From the NCBI RefSeq assembly GCF_042477335.2, contig NC_091247.1, positions 7,152,501 to 7,216,500 of the forward strand: a DNA stretch of 64,000 nucleotides, written 5' to 3'. A model generated the notes under the pieces. It was not told the DNA's origin. It did no database searches and saw only the letters and a list, made by a program, of their open reading frames with translations. Origin of the DNA: Ovis canadensis (Eukaryota > Chordata > Mammalia > Artiodactyla > Bovidae). This document shows positions 5,448 through 61,983 of this stretch, one piece after another. A program made the translations under genes and the position numbers. Position 1 is the first letter of the stretch; each line of letters opens with the position of its first letter.

Positions 5448-6020
5448 AGAACTCCTTTTACCTTGCCAAGCTCTGTACCTATTAAACATTAACTAACTCT
5501 CTATTTCCCTCTCTCCCCAGGCCTGGGCAGCCACCACTCCCTATGAACTTACCCATTCTAGGAACCTAATATAAGTGCAATCATACAATATTTGTCCTCT
5601 GGTGTCTGGCTTATTTCACTTAGCATAATGTCCTCCAGGTTCACCCAAAGTGAAGCGGGCGTCAGAATGGCCTTCCTTTCCAAGGCTGAACGACGTTCCG
5701 TTATATGTACACACCACACTTGGCTCATCTGTTCATCTGTTGATGGACATTTGGCTTGTTCCCACCTCTTGGCTGCTGTGACTAATGCTGCCGTGACCAT
5801 GGAATATGTACCTGTTGGAGACCTTGATTCAATTCTTTGGGATATATTCCCAAAGATGGAATTGCTAGATCATATGGTAATTCTTTGGAACTCTGCATTC
5901 AGATGCTTATATCTTTCCTTTTCTCCTTTGCTTTTCGCCTCTCTTCTTTTCACAGCTATTGTAAGGCCTCCCCAGACAGCCATTGTGCTGTTTTGCCTTT
6001 CTTTTCCATTGGGATGGTCT

Positions 6021-6851
6021 TCATCCCTGTCTCCTGTACAGTGTCACGAACCTCAGTCCATAGTTCATCAGGCACTCTATCAAATCTAGGCCCTTAAATC
6101 TATTCCTCACTTCCACTGTATAATCATAAGGGATTTGATTTAGGTCATACCTGAATGGTCTAGTGGTTTTCCCTACTTTCTTCAATTTGAGTCTGAATTT
6201 GGCAATAAGGAGCTCATGATCTGAGCCACAGTCAGCTCCTGGTCTTGTTTTTGTTGACTGTATAGAGCTTCTCCATCTTTGGCTGCAAAGAATATAATCA
6301 ATCTGATTTTGGTGTTGACCATCTGGTGATGTCCATGTGTAGAGTCTTCTCTTGTGTTGTTGGAAGAGGGTGTTTGCTATGACCAGTGCATTTTCCTGGC
6401 AAAATTCGATTAGCCTTTGCCCTGCTTCATTCCATACTCCAAGGCCAAATTTGCCTGTTACTCCAGGTGTTTCTTGACTTCCTACTTTTGCATTCCAGTC
6501 CCCTATTAGGAAAAGGACATCTTTTTTGGGTGTTAGTTCTAAAAGGTCTTGAAGGTCTTCATAAAACCGTTCAACTTCAGCTTCTTCAGCATTACTGGTT
6601 GGGGCATAGACTTGGATTACCGTGATATTGAACGGTTTGCCTTGGAGACGAACAGAGATCATTCTGTCGTTTTTGAGATTGCATCCAATTACTGCATTTC
6701 GGACTCTTTTGTTGACCACGATGGCTACTCCATTTCTTCTGAGGGATTCCTGCCTGCAGTAGTAGATATAATGGTCATCTGAGTTAAATTTACACATTCC
6801 ACTCCATTTTAGTTCACTGATTCCTAGAACGTCAACATTCACCCTTGCCAT
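6021..6851 (-). pseudogene. BovB apurinic-type endonuclease domain (inverted part)
   Basis: 276-codon open frame in the inverted 5' half of the BovB copy. It encodes most of the N-terminal endonuclease domain that nicks target DNA for reverse transcription. Visible landmarks are LGISELKW near residue 9, the metal-site block IGDWNAK near 115, QIDYILCSQRWRSS near 185 and GSDHELL near 212 (the catalytic His). The protein runs into BovB linker sequence, then loses the family frame near residue 260 (CLMNYGL in place of the usual linker) and ends. Because the reverse transcriptase lies in the opposite orientation at 7178-8966, the intact polyprotein cannot be made. It is a transposon relic, not a host gene. 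Confidence 0.9.
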
Positions 6852-7143
6852 CTCTCATTTGACCAATTCCAATTTGCCTTGATTCATGGACCTGACATTC
6901 CAGGTTCCTATGCAATATTGCTCTTTACAGCATCGGATCTTGCTTCTATCACCAGTCACATCCACAACTGAGTATTGTTTTTGCTTTGGCTCCATCCCTT
7001 CATTTTTTCTGGCGTTATTTCTCCACTGATCTCCAGTAGCATATTGGGCACCTACTGACCTGGGGAATTCCTCTTTCGGTATCCTATCATTTTGCCTTTT
7101 CATACTGTTAATGGGGTTCGCAAGGCAAGAATACTGAAGTGGC

Positions 7144-7557
7144 TTGCCATTCCCTTCTCCAGTGGACCACATTCTGTCAGAGTTCCAAAGAATAGCAAGA
7201 AGAGATAAGAAAGCCTTCTTCAGCGATCAATACAAAGAAATAGAGGAAAACAACAGAATGGGAAAGACTAGAGATCTCTTCAAGAAAATTAGAGATACCA
7301 AGGGAACATTTCATGCAAAGATGGGCTCGATAAAGGACAGAAATGGTATGGACCTAACAGAAGCAGAAGATATTAAGAAGAGGTGGCAAGAATACACAGA
7401 AGAACTGTACAAAAAAGATCTTCATGACCCAGATAATCATGATGATGTGATCACTAATCTAGAGCCAGACATCTTGGAATGTGAAGTCAAGTGGGCCTTA
7501 GAAAGCATCAAGTTACTGGAGGTGATAGAATTCCAGTTGAGCTGTTTCAAATCCTGA
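7144..7557 (+). pseudogene. BovB linker and start of reverse transcriptase
   Basis: The family frame starts after the inversion junction (about 7178) with EFQRIARRDKKAFFSD and continues through NGMDLTEAEDIKKRWQEYTE to EVKWALESIK, the region between endonuclease and polymerase. The first codons before 7178 come from the inverted part. The frame is lost near 7510, where about 11 bases present in other BovB copies (around the usual MNKASG block) are missing, and the polymerase continues in a different frame from 7491. Confidence 0.88.
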
Positions 7558-8090
7558 AAGATGATGCTGTGAAAGTGCTGCACTCAATATGCCAGCAAAT
7601 TTGGAAAACTCAGCAGTGGCCACAGGACTGGAAAAGGTCAGTTTCCATTCCAATCCCAAAGAAAGGCAATGCCAAAGAATGCTCAAACTACCGCACAATT
7701 GCACTCATCTCACATGCTAGTAAAGTAATGCTCAAAATTCTCCAAGCCAGGCTTCAGCAATATGTGAACCGTGAACTCCCCGATGTTCAAGCTGGTTTTA
7801 GAAAAGGCAGAGGAACCAGAGATCAAATTGCCAACATCTGCTGGATCATGGAAAAAGCAAGAGAGTTCCAGAAAAACATCTATTTCTGCTTTATTGACTA
7901 TGCCAAAGCCTTTGACTGTGTGGATCACAATAAACTGTGGAAAGTTCTGAAAGAGATGGGAATACCAGACCACCTAACCTGCCTCTTGAGAAATCTGTAT
8001 GCAGGTCAGGAAGAAACAGTTAGAACTGGACATGGAACAACAGACTGGTTCCAAATAGGAAAAGGAGTACGTCAAGGCTGTATATTGTGA
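7491..8090 (+). pseudogene. BovB reverse transcriptase, fingers/palm part
   Basis: Continues the polymerase after the frame change. Landmarks are the fingers motif WKRSVSIPIPKKGN, QAGFRKGRGTRDQ, palm motif A FIDYAKAFDCVDH with its catalytic Asp, and motif B GVRQGC. A TGA at 8088-8090 replaces the codon after CIL; the same frame then continues at 8124. Function in BovB: copies the element RNA at the nicked target. Dead here because of the stop, the upstream frameshift and the inverted endonuclease. Confidence 0.9.
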
Positions 8091-8123
8091 CCCTGCCTAT
8101 TTAACTTCTATGCAGAGTACATC

Positions 8124-8966
8124 ATGAGAAACGCTGGGCTGGAAGAATCACAAGCTGGAATCAAGCTTGCCGGGAGAAATATCAATAAGCTCAGATATGC
8201 AGATGACACCATCCTTATGGCAGAAAGTGAAGAGGAACTAAAAACCCTCTTGATGAAAGTGAAAGAGGAGAGGGAAAAAGTTGACTTAAAGCTCAACATT
8301 CAGAAAACAAAGATCATGGCATCTGGTCCCATCACTTTATGGGAAATAGATGGGGAAACAGTGGAAACAGTGTCAGACTTTATTTTGGGGGGCTCCAAAA
8401 TCACTGCAGATGGTGACTGCAGCCATGAAATTAAAAGACACTTGCTCCTTGGAAGAAAAGTTATGACCAACCTAGATAGCATATTCAAAAGCAGAGACAC
8501 TACTTTGCCAACTAAGGTCCATCTAGTCAAGGCTATGGTTTTTCCTGTGGTCATGTATGGATGTGAGAGTTGGACTGTGAAGAAGGCTGAGCGCCGAAGT
8601 ATTGATGCTTTTGAACTGTGGTGTTGGAGAAGACTCTTGAGAGTCCCTTGGACTGCAAAGAGATCCAACCAGTCCATTCTGAGGGAGATCAACCCTGGGA
8701 TTTCCTTGAAAGGAATGATGCTAAAGCTGAAGCTCCAGTACTTTGGCCACCTCATGCGAAGAGTTGACTCATTGGAAAAGTCTCTGACGCTGGGAGCGAT
8801 TGGGGGCAGGAGGAGAAGGGCACGACCGAGGATGAGATGGCTGGATGGCATCACGGACTTGATGGACTTGAGTCTGAGTGAACTCCGGGAGTTGGTTATG
8901 GACAGGGAGGCCTGGCGTGCTGCGATTCATGGCGTCGCAAAGAGTCGGACACGACTGAGTGACTGA
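8124..8966 (+). pseudogene. BovB reverse transcriptase, catalytic motif C to C-terminus
   Basis: 280-codon open frame, in phase with the preceding segment across one stop. It carries the RTE catalytic motif YADD (codons at 8196-8207), then the thumb and the long C-terminal domain ([49 protein letters not shown]) and ends at the normal stop in the BovB tail. This is the best-preserved polymerase part of this copy. It is a relic of a selfish element, with no sign of domestication. Confidence 0.92.
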
Positions 8967-9211
8967 ACTAACTGATGGTAATTCTATTTTTAATTGTTTG
9001 AGGAACCATCATACTGTTTTCCATAGTGGCTGGACCATTTTACATTCCCACCAACAGTATACAAGCTTCCAGTTTCTCCACATCCTCACCCACACTTGTT
9101 ATTTTCTGAGTTTTGATAGTAACCATCCTAGTAGGTGTTATGTGGGGTGGTATCTCATTGTGGTTTTGATTTACATTTCCGTGATGGTCACTGAGGGAAT
9201 AGGATTTTTTA

Positions 9212-42979: not shown

Positions 42980-43527
42980 AAATCTCAACAAACTGAAAAG
43001 AAGTGAAATCAGAGTGTGTTCTCTGATCGTGAGAGAATCGAAGCAGAAATTAATATCAGAAATACAACAGGAAAATCTCCAAACATTGGAAACAACACAC
43101 TTCTAAAAATTACCCATAGGTCAAAGAAGAAGTCTCAAAGGAAATTTTAAAAACACATAGAACCGAATGAAAACAAAAACACAGAATATAAAAATGTGTG
43201 GAATGCAGCTAAAGTGGTGTGGTGAGGGAATTTATAGCACTAATTATTTACATTCAGTTCAGTTCAGTCGCTCAGTCGTGTCCGACTCTTTGCGACCCCA
43301 TGGACTGAAGTACGCCAGGCCTCTCTGTCCATCGCCAACTCCCAGAATTTACTCAAACTCATGTCCATCCAGTCGGTGATGCCATCCAGCCATCTCATCC
43401 TCTGTCGTCCCTTTCTCCTCCCACCTTCAATCTTTCCCAGCATCAGGGTCTTTTCCAACCAGTCGGCTCCTCCCATAAGGTGGCCAAAGTATTGGAACTT
43501 CAGCTTCAGCATCAGTCTTTCCAATGA

Positions 43528-44274
43528 CTATTCAGTGTTAATTGCCTTTAGGATCAACCAGTTTGATTTTCTTGCTGTCCAAGGGACCCTCAAGAGTTTT
43601 CTCCAATGCCACAGTTCAAAAGCATCAGTTCTTTGGCGTTCAGCCTTCTTTATGGTCCAACTCTCACATTTGTACAAAACTACTGGAAAAACCATAGCTT
43701 TGATTATATGGACATTTGTTGGCAAAGTGATGTCACTGCTTTTTAATACACTGTCTAGATTTGGCATAGTTTTTCTTCCAAGGAGCAAGCTTCTTTTGGT
43801 TTTGTGACTATAGTCACCACCTGCAGTGATTTTGGAGCCCCCAAAACTAAACTCTGTCACTGTTTCCATTGTTGGCCCATCTATTCGCCATGAAGTGATG
43901 GGACCAGATGCCGTGATCTTAGTTTTCTGAATGTTGAGCTTTAAGCCAACTTTTTCACTCTCCTCTTTCACTTTCATCAAGAGGCTCTTTAGTTCTTCTT
44001 TGCTTTCTGCCGTAAGGGTAGTGTCATCTGCATATCTGAGGTTATTGATATTTGTCCTGGCAATCTTGATTCCAGCTTGTGCTTCATCCAGCCCGGCGTT
44101 TCGCATGATATACTCTGCATATAAGTTAAATATGCAGGGTGACAATATACAGCCTTGATGTACTCCTTTCCCAATTTGGAACCAGTCTGTAGTTCCATGT
44201 CCAGTTCTAACTGTTGCTTCTTGACCTGCATACAGATTTCTCAGGAGGCAGGTAAGGTGGTATGGTATTCCCAC
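43528..44274 (-). pseudogene. BovB reverse transcriptase, motif B to C-terminal domain
   Basis: 248-codon frame in the antisense part. Landmarks are [16 protein letters not shown] (motif B near residue 40), YADD at residues 81-84 (codons 44034-44023), [30 protein letters not shown] and a premature end after [22 protein letters not shown]. The C-terminal tail in 43264-43524 continues in another frame ([20 protein letters not shown] to [10 protein letters not shown]), so a frameshift near 43525 splits the domain. Dead LINE polymerase. Confidence 0.9.
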
Positions 44275-44549
44275 CTCTTTCAGAATTTTCCACAGTTTGT
44301 TGTGATCACACAGGCAAAGCCTTCGGCATAGTCAATAAAGCAGAAATAGATGTTTTTCTGGAACTCTCTTGCTTATTTGATGATCCAGTGGATGTTGGCA
44401 ATTTAATCTCTGGTTCCTCTGCCTTTTCTAAATCCAGCTTGAACATCTGGAAGTCCATGATTCATGTACTGTTGAAGCCTGGCTTGGAGAATTTCGAGCA
44501 TTGCTTTGCTAGCATGTGAGATGAGTGCAACAGGGCAGTAGTTTGTTCA

Positions 44550-44792
44550 TTATTTGGCATTGCCTTCCTTTGGGATTGGAATGAAACTTGACCTTTTCCA
44601 GTCCTGTGGCCACTGCTGAGTTTTCCAAATTTGCTGGCATATTGAGTGCAGCACCTTCACAGCATCATCTTTCAGGCTTTGAAATAGCTCAACTGGAATT
44701 TCATCACTTCCACTAGCTTTGTTCATAGTGATACTTCCTAAGGCCCACTTGACTTTGCATTTCAGGATGTCTGGCTCTAGTCCAGTGATCAT
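44550..44792 (-). pseudogene. BovB reverse transcriptase, fingers part
   Basis: Encodes ALGSITMNKASGSDEIPVEL, then WKTQQWPQDWKRSSFIPIPK. The frame ends at a broken site near 44550, where sequence equivalent to ECSNYRTI is disrupted. Part of the same BovB copy. Confidence 0.88.
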
Positions 44793-44852
44793 ACCATCAT
44801 GGTTATCTGGGTCATGAAGCTCTTTTTGTATAAGTTCGTCTGTGTATTCTTG

Positions 44853-45068
44853 TCACCTCATCTTCATATCTTCTGCTTCTGTTAGGTCCATACCATTTCT
44901 GTCCTTTATTGTGCCCATCTTTGCATGAAATGTGCCCTTGGTATCTCTAACTTTCTTGACGGGATCTCTAGTATTTCCTATTCTATTGTTTTCCTCTATT
45001 TCTTTGCATTGATCACTGAGGAAGGTTTTCTTATCTCTCCTTACTATTTTTTGGAACTCTACATTCAA
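44853..45068 (-). pseudogene. BovB linker region
   Basis: Encodes FQKIVRRDKKTFLSDQCKEI and NGMDLTEAEDMKMR, upstream of the polymerase in the same copy. Stops and frameshifts separate it from both neighbours. Confidence 0.85.
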
Positions 45069-45141
45069 ATGGGTATATCTTTTCTCCTTTGCCTTTAGCT
45101 TCTCTTCTTTTCTCAGCTATCTGTAAGGCCTCCTCAGACAA

Positions 45142-45756
45142 CTATTTTGCCTTTTTGCATTTCTTTTTCTTGGGGATGGTCTTGATCACTGCCTCCTGTA
45201 CAATGTCACAAACCTCCGTCCATAGTTCTTCAGGCACTCTGTCTATCAGTTCTAATCCCTTGAATCTGTTTGTGACTTCCACCATATAATCATAAGATAT
45301 TTGATTTAGGTCATACCTGAATGGTCTAGTGGTTTTCCCTATTTTCTTAAATTTAAGTCTGAATTTTACAATAAGAAGTTCATGATCTGAGCCACAGTCA
45401 GCTCCCAGCCTTGTTTTTGCTGACTGGATAGAGCTTCTCCATCTTTGGCTGCAAAGAATATAATCAATCTGATTTCTGTTTTGACCATCTGGTGATGTCC
45501 ATGTGTAGAGTCTTCTCTTGTGTTGTTGGAAAAGGGTGTTTGCTATGACCAGTGTGTTCTCTTGGCAAAACCCTGTTAACCTTTGCCCTGCTTCATTTTG
45601 CACTCCAAGGCCAAATTTGCCTGTTACTCCAACAAAACAGTAAGTACTGTTACTCTGATAAAACGTGGTCCAGTGGAGAAGGAAATGGCAAACCATTTCA
45701 GTATTCTTGCCTTGAGAACCCCATGAACAGGATGAAAAGGCAAAAAGATAGGACAC
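45142..45756 (-). pseudogene. BovB endonuclease C-terminal half
   Basis: 204-codon frame. From about residue 44 it is BovB: VTGKFGLGVQNEAGQRL, YTWTSPDGQNRNQIDYIL, GSDHELLIVKFRL, then KTTRPFRYDLNQISYDYMVE and a Lys-rich linker. The first about 43 codons lie across the inversion junction at 45631 and are not BovB endonuclease in this direction. The N-terminal half of the domain is at 45900-46380 on the other strand. Confidence 0.88.
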
Positions 45757-46206
45757 TGAAAGATGAATTCCCCAGGCCAGTAGGTGCCCAATATGCTACT
45801 GGAGATCAGTGGAGAAATAGCTCCAAAAAGAATGAAGAGATGGAGCCAAAGCAAAAACAACACCCAGTTGTGGATATGACTGGTGATGGAAGTCTGAGGC
45901 TGTAAAAAACAATATTGCATAGGAACCTGAAATGTTAGATCCACGAATCAAGATAAACTGGAAGCAGTTAAACAGGAGATCGGAAGAGTGAACATCAACA
46001 TTTTAGGAACAGTGAACTAAAATGGACTGGAATGGGTGAATTTAACTCAATGATCATTTATCTATTACTGTGGGCAAGAATCCCTGAGAAGAAATGGAGT
46101 AGCCCTCATAGTCAACAATAGAGTCCGAAATGCAGTACTTGGATGTGATCTGAAAAATGACAGAATGATCTCTGTTCGTTTCTAAAGCAAACCATTCAAT
46201 ATCACG

Positions 46207-46434
46207 GTGATCCTAGTCTATGCCTCAACCAGTAAAGCTGAAGAAGCTGAAGTTAAATGGTTCTATGAAGACCTAGAAGACCTTCTAGAACTAACACCAA
46301 AAAAAGATGTCTTTTTCTTTATAGGGGACTGGAATGCAAAAGCAGGAAGTCAAGAGATACCTGGAGTAACAGGCAAATTTGACCTTGAAAATGCTTACAT
46401 TAGAAAGAGAGAAAGTCTCAGGTCATTCATTTAA
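46207..46434 (+). pseudogene. BovB endonuclease N-terminal half, 3' piece (inverted part) fused to L1
   Basis: Encodes FYEDLEDLLELTPKKDVFFF and IGDWNAKAGSQEIPGVTGKF, the metal-binding part of the endonuclease, up to the junction at about 46388. The last about 15 codons come from the L1 target. Earlier parts of the domain (45950-46200) are broken by stops. This lies in the inverted 5' end of the BovB copy. Confidence 0.88.
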
Positions 46435-60934: not shown

Positions 60935-61019
60935 ATGGTGGAGAGTTCTGACAAAACGTGGTCCAATGGAGAAGGGAAAGGCAAACCACTTCAGTATTCT
61001 TGCCTTGAGAACCCCATGA

Positions 61020-61236
61020 AAGTGAAAGTGAGAGTGAAGTCGCTCAGTCCTGTCCGACTCTTTGCGACCCCGTGGACTGTAGCCCACCAGGCTCCTCCGT
61101 CCATGGGATTCTCCAGGCAAGATACTGGAGTGGGTTGCCGTTTCCTTCTCCAGAGGATCTTCCCGACCCAGGGATCGAACCCAGATCTCCCACACTGCGG
61201 GCAGATGCTTTAACCTCTGAGCCACCAGGGACGCCC
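61020..61236 (-). mobile_element. Bov-tA SINE
   Basis: Antisense: gtgaagtcgctcagtcctgt, cccagggatcgaacccagat, ccaccagggacgccc. Flanked by the 14-base perfect duplication tgagaaccccatga (61006-61019 and 61237-61250), inside BovB. Confidence 0.95.
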
Positions 61237-61247
61237 TGAGAACCCCA

Positions 61248-61643
61248 TGATTCATGGACCTAATATTCCAGGTTCCTAGGCAATATTGTCATGGACCTAA
61301 TATTCCAGGTTCCTAGGCAATATTGTGTTTTACAGCATCGGACTTGACTTCCATCACCTGTCACACCCACAACTGAGCGTTGTTTTCCCTTTGACTCTGT
61401 CTCTTCATTCTTTCTGGATTCTAGTTCACGAACAGGATGAAAAGGCAAAAAGATAGGACACTGGAAGATGAACTCCCCAGGTCGGTAGGTGCCCCGTATG
61501 CTACTAGAATCCAGAAAGAATGAAGAGACGGAGTCAAAGGGAAAACAACGCCCAATTGTGGATGTGACAGGTGATGAAAGTCAAGCCCGATGCTGTAAAA
61601 CACAATATTGCCTAGGAACCTGGAATATTAGGTCCATGAATCA
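61248..61643. repeat. 141-base inverted repeat inside BovB
   Basis: Left arm 61248-61425 (178 bases including a 37-base tandem duplication, 61252-61288 and 61289-61325, identical by eye). Right arm 61503-61643 (141 bases). With the duplication removed the arms have equal length and differ at about 6 positions, all transitions. Spacer 77 bases. Both arms contain the same BovB deletion junction (actagaatccagaaag), so one arm was copied from the other. Confidence 0.9.
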
Positions 61644-61824
61644 AGGCAAATTGGAAGTGGTCAAACAGGAGATGGCAAGAGTAGATGTCGACAATTTAGG
61701 AATCAGCCAACGAAAATGGACTGGAATGGGTGAATTTAACTCAGATGACCATTATATCTACTACTGTGGGCAAGAATCCCTTAGAAGAAATGGAGTAATC
61801 CTCATAGTCAACAAAAGAGTCTGA
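61489..61824 (+). pseudogene. BovB endonuclease N-terminal part
   Basis: 111-codon frame. It encodes the 5' leader-derived CCKTQYCLGTWNIRSMNQGK, then the start of the endonuclease (VDNLGISQRKWTGMGEFNSD, YYCGQESLRRNGV) and stops at a TGA (61822-61824) in place of the family codon after NKRV. Endonuclease sequence continues to 61983 (motif QVDAPTSNAEEAEVEH-like) without the metal-site block. Truncated and dead. Confidence 0.88.
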
Positions 61825-61983
61825 AATGCAGTACCTGGGTGCAATCTCAAAAATGACAGAATGATCTCTGTTCGTTTCCAAGGCAAACCATTCAAGATCA
61901 CAGTAATCCAAGTCGATGCCCCAACCAGTAATGCTGAAGAAGCTGAAGTTGAACACTCATATAAAGACCTAAAACTAACACCA

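Follow-up and report, generated by a model that had tools for sequence, protein, structure and literature searches.

Structure of a BovB insertion with an inverted front half

The analysed window is a 64,000-nucleotide stretch of the Ovis canadensis genome (contig NC_091247.1, positions 7,152,501 to 7,216,500). Within it, an insertion of the ruminant mobile element BovB, a LINE, occupies positions 5885–8974; it is most probably a single insertion and is sited within the 3' end of another element that we take to be an L1. The front half, which carries the endonuclease (EN), is inverted, while the reverse-transcriptase (RT) half lies in the sense orientation, and one perfect 11-bp target-site duplication (TSD) surrounds both. 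The features of the locus are as follows:

5874–5884: left copy of the TSD, ATGGTAATTCT, in the L1 3' end; the preceding base is T
5880–5884: microhomology ATTCT between the target end and the element RNA, the proposed second primer
5885–7181 (end uncertain within 7178–7181), minus strand: inverted 5' part of BovB with the endonuclease domain (Exo_endo_phos)
7178–7181: microhomology CAGA at the inversion joint, read by eye
7178–7193, plus strand: CAGAGTTCCAAAGAAT, the element stretch common to both halves
7178–8974, plus strand: sense 3' part of BovB with the reverse-transcriptase domain (RVT_1) and the 3' end
8975–8985: right copy of the TSD, ATGGTAATTCT, after which the L1 resumes

Compared with uninverted copies from the genome, 5885–7181 is antisense and 7178–8974 is sense. 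Pfam searches placed Exo_endo_phos (9.2e-16) on 6024–6854 in the inverted half and RVT_1 on 7485–8087 (2.2e-21) and 8091–8963 (2.6e-9) in the sense half. The combination of an apurinic-type endonuclease and a reverse transcriptase is that of BovB (RTE clade), both domains being common to many LINEs, and we use the name BovB/RTE as a presumptive one. The TSD, with its 11 bp and its first A following a T, also matches the published description of BovB/RTE insertions (10–12 bp, A after T). The insertion is long and not full length, since other copies extend up to ~680 bp further 5'; in L019, L020, L021, and L022, the BovB 5' UTR reaches at least ~680 bp further upstream and contains degenerate internal repeats.

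A sequence-only reading of this DNA had proposed that one 11-base TSD encloses both parts, and the copies at 5874–5884 and 8975–8985 were indeed identical at 11 of 11 positions. When boundary pairs were drawn at random in this repeat-rich window, a flush exact repeat of at least 11 nt appeared in 3 of 3981 draws. The same reading had suggested a comparison with the uninterrupted L1 3' end. Eleven L1 paralogs were retrieved with the right flank alone, and eight of them read through the insertion site without interruption; of the remaining three, L093 reaches the site only partly, and L088 and L091 do not align across it.

Junctions at single-base level

The uninverted genome copies, which give the local element sequence, served as the reference for the junctions. 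At the left junction, the target ends with GGTAATTCT and the element goes on with TTGGAACTC, while ATTCT fits both, making a 5-nt microhomology. Where the inverted part starts, the uninverted copies have ...TTGCTATTCTTTGGAACTC in the antisense direction, so that ATTCT can be RNA-templated. Measured against every element position, a microhomology of at least 5 nt to these target ends has a P of 0.0018, in agreement with the earlier proposal that the left target end is complementary to the element RNA at the starting point of the inverted cDNA.

Across the other end of the inverted piece, the uninverted copies read TCTGACAGAATGTGG in the sense direction. At this inversion joint, the antisense match runs through TGTCAGA and the sense match begins from CAGAGTTCC, with CAGA (7178–7181) common to the two. 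The parts had been given as 5885–7177 on the minus strand and 7178–8974 on the plus strand; their opposite orientation stands, but the exact 7177/7178 border does not, since it can shift by up to four bases (CAGA) given that the uninverted copies read ...TCTGACAGAATG there. The two halves overlap in the element by CAGAGTTCCAAAGAAT, a 16-nt stretch found antisense at 5880–5895 and sense at 7178–7193. As five of these nucleotides (ATTCT, 5880–5884) belong to the target too, the overlap amounts to 11–16 nt, confirming that both parts meet at the same point of the element. At the right junction, the element ends with AACTAACTG and is followed by the second TSD copy.

Inverted BovB copies elsewhere in the genome

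Other inverted BovB copies were sought in the window's own genome (2.97 Gb, 42 contigs; the window lies at C3:7152501-7216500). From 10,354 candidates matching 5885–7177 (the EN half), the best 40 were taken and the insertion's own place was dropped, leaving 39, of which 20 were examined with ~4 kb flanks and 19 on the flank expected to carry the RT half. Five of the 39 were 5'-inverted (L013, L021, L028 with L044, L033 with L045, and L041 with L046), a fraction that should not be taken as a genome-wide rate because the best 40 of 10,354 were chosen by similarity to the EN half of the given copy. Sampling by the EN half would also miss copies inverted inside that half. L026 has an internal deletion and no inversion. 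The window itself holds a second, older BovB that is also 5'-inverted:

43255–46387, minus strand: second BovB in the window, with its sense part at ~43255–45631 (minus) and its inverted part at ~45652–46387 (plus)

This copy is 86–87% identical to the given one and is uninterrupted where the given copy breaks. Together with its flanking repeats (43242–46401), it breaks at a different point and has, close to the inversion joint, 26 nt that are either duplicated or filler.

Among the seven inverted copies (the given one, the five sampled ones, and the second window copy), no pair has all junctions alike. TSDs were clear in four of the seven, weak in two, and absent in one. The clear ones are 11/11 in the given copy, 13/13 in L028, 10/11 in L013, and AACAGAACTTC in L021, where 11 bases are identical and the extension to 17 with one mismatch made by our script runs into the element tail. 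The weak ones are those of L041 (7 identical, longer only if gapped) and of the second window copy (43242–43254 and 46389–46401; 10/13 by eye with one extra base), for which the script found at best 8 with 2 mismatches; L033 has none. As a TSD control, 17 uninverted copies were inspected; most of them had short or ambiguous TSDs or none, as their 5' UTRs vary and the position of the 5' border is often unclear.

The earlier reading had further called for a genome-wide survey with scoring of the microhomology at the junction between target and inverted part. In the sample analysed here, this microhomology was 5 nt in the given copy, 3 nt in L021 and L028, 2 nt in L013, and 0 in L033, L041, and the second window copy. 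The sum over the seven copies was 13 against 3.08 expected (P 0.0005), and that over the six copies other than the given one was 8 against 2.55 expected (P 0.016). The recurrence of inverted copies and the pooled excess speak for twin priming; the three of seven copies with a score of zero speak against it, as do the missing TSD of L033 and the weak ones of L041 and the second window copy. Microhomology at the inversion joint, read by eye, was 4 nt in the given copy, ~3 in L021, 2 in L028, ~2 in the second window copy, 1 in L041, 0–2 in L013, and 0 with one extra base in L033. The halves overlap in two of the seven copies, namely the given one and the second window copy (~26 nt), and some element sequence is missing between the halves in the other five.

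A second sample consisted of 40 matches to window positions 45051–45631, or 39 after the own place was dropped. A 301-bp screen found eight of these 39 without a collinear RT half, and a 201-bp look at the far side of the eight revealed an antiparallel RT in L103, a possible one in L099, and no RT in six. None of the eight is included in the counts of inverted copies. A search of viral contigs for BovB yielded no relative.

Twin priming as the probable origin of the inverted insertion

These features most probably go back to a single BovB retrotransposition by twin priming, a reading that was proposed from the sequence of the locus and is now supported from several sides. It fits best because of the shared TSD of RTE-like length, the microhomologies ATTCT and CAGA, the small overlap, the eight uninterrupted L1 paralogs, and the recurrence of inversion in five of the 39 sampled copies and in the second window copy. 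In such an event, the endonuclease would nick the bottom strand, and copying of the BovB RNA would set out from its 3' end at that nick, giving a first cDNA that corresponds to the sense half. Cleavage of the second strand 11 nt away would free a top-strand end, ...GGTAATTCT-3', which could pair via ATTCT with AGAAU located ~1.8 kb from the RNA 3' end. The paired end would then prime a second cDNA, the inverted half, which would extend for ~1.3 kb in the direction of the 5' end of the RNA, and the two cDNAs, overlapping by 11–16 nt, may be joined via CAGA. The TSD, the orientations, the overlap, both microhomologies, the uninterrupted target in paralogs, and the recurrence in the genome are seen in the sequences themselves, and we infer the order of these steps, the polymerase, and the joining reaction.

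An alternative is that a single cDNA folded back or switched template (or that repair synthesis took place), with no second priming by a target end. This, too, would be expected to leave a single TSD and short microhomology at the joint, and the window contains a BovB 5' fragment (60947–61970), broken by a SINE-like piece, in which a short inverted piece lies between collinear parts and looks as if it came from fold-back or template switching. However, this process does not predict that the inverted half shares microhomology with the target end where it starts, and the 5 nt at this locus together with the pooled excess in the six other copies make it very improbable.

Another question is whether the two halves derive from two BovB copies that arrived separately, one landing within or next to the other and facing the opposite way. 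The two halves of the given copy hardly differ in their identity to 12 uninverted copies (94.5% and 94.4%). Departures from the column majority number 40 of 1271 positions in the EN half and 37 of 1735 in the RT half (Fisher P 0.10), a slight difference that would suit two sources. The 12 control copies lean the opposite way, with 2.05% (EN) and 2.57% (RT) departures, and for the EN-minus-RT difference in identity, the given copy (0.0014) lies ~3 sd from the control mean (0.0153, sd 0.0042); the control lean is biased to low EN departures because the 12 copies were selected for a good EN match. We read this divergence pattern neither as two sources nor as evidence for one. What favours a single event is the outer TSD pair, the inner joint with neither a TSD nor an element 3' end, and the common break point of the halves. 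Two insertions would have to yield a pair that is flanked by one TSD and whose members break at one and the same point of the element, overlapping by 16 nt, which we regard as highly unlikely.

An ordinary insertion whose 5' part was flipped later by a chromosomal inversion would likewise leave a single TSD pair around two halves of the same element, but it is extremely improbable, since one breakpoint would have to fall exactly at the TSD edge, where the inverted parts of L013, L021, and L028 also start, and neither the 11–16-nt overlap nor the ATTCT target microhomology is predicted. Both separate insertions and later inversion are less apt because they need several coincidences, repeated in other copies. 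Twin priming by a single BovB RNA accounts for the locus without them, and the earlier statement that the locus shows this process for an RTE-clade LINE holds for the footprints in the sequence and not beyond them.

Relation to inversions of L1 and other LINEs

Most work on twin priming concerns L1. According to a human and chimpanzee study (PMC2912911), L1 5' inversions resemble the BovB copies: a single TSD pair surrounds an inverted 5' part and a sense 3' part, the target junction and the inversion joint show microhomology, and there are small overlaps or deletions. In that study, 28 of 605 L1 5' inversions had no target-junction microhomology and ~70% had 2–5 bp, whereas it was absent in three of the seven BovB copies, a small and partly old sample. 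BovB also belongs to another clade and has a TSD of 11 bp here, compared with ~15 bp in L1.

Outside L1, the available part of a cell study (PMC4245944) gives a TSD peak of 10–12 bp for RTE and describes 5' inversions in human cells with L1 only, the exception being one insert of Nimb-2_DR in DT40; in that study, 5' inversion was linked to features of both L1 and the host cell. Like BovB, Nimb-2_DR (PMC4245944) is a non-L1 LINE with a 5' inversion and has a TSD peak of ~12 bp, but it is a zebrafish element seen in one insert in cultured cells, whereas several germline copies are seen for BovB. The BovB insertion signature is given as Tn-TA in PMC13295347. The given copy agrees with it in that its TSD starts with A after T, and it has no three successive T some ten bases before that point. 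By eye, the A-after-T start recurs in the five further inverted copies for which some TSD is seen. PMC13295347 does not use the terms inversion, inverted, or twin, and BovB inversion is not mentioned in the passages considered of PMC5389967, PMC4760211, PMC8620236, and PMC12075945. For snRNA chimeras, the available text of PMC4476161 connects twin priming with L1 and assigns those of L2 and RTE to template switching only. Among the matches listed, there was no report of twin priming in BovB, and the one paper combining the terms "twin priming" and "BovB" has twin priming only in its reference list; the likeliest place, Ichiyanagi & Okada 2008, lies outside the coverage.

Taken as sequence footprints, our findings indicate that an RTE-clade LINE may undergo twin priming too. 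Because BovB inversions recur with target microhomology, it seems that second priming arises as a by-product of target-primed reverse transcription (TPRT) in general. The presence of BovB and L1 side by side in a ruminant genome would permit a comparison of the two within the same host.

A possible preferred site of second priming

The linker between EN and RT (RNA GAGUUCCAAAGAAU) might be a preferred second-priming site, with the second cDNA often stopping near ...TGTCAGA, an idea that we consider rather doubtful. The second-priming starts of the given copy and L021 differ by at most 1 nt, and the starts of the five sampled inverted copies all fall within ~290 nt, out of some 1.8 kb in which they could have lain. 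This clustering is partly expected, because copies with starts further upstream could not enter the sample and because second cDNAs of great length should be less frequent. The border pattern at this site occurs at 46 genome places, 17 of them not explained by a single element indel; the comparison pattern (sense strand, 234 places) was swamped by indel copies and other repeats, with sequences covering part of the places. The inverted parts of three of the seven copies (the given one, L028, and the second window copy) end within 3 nt of each other.

Ends within a few bases of ...TCTGACAGAATG were observed for the inverted parts at 7170–7181, in L028 with L044, and at 45652–45662, and the 5' ends of the ordinary copies L024 and L009 also fall there, as if the RNA or its reverse transcription often ended near this sequence. 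At L009:2246-7080, a longer BovB is immediately preceded by a BovB RT half (88%) of the same orientation, forming a tandem.
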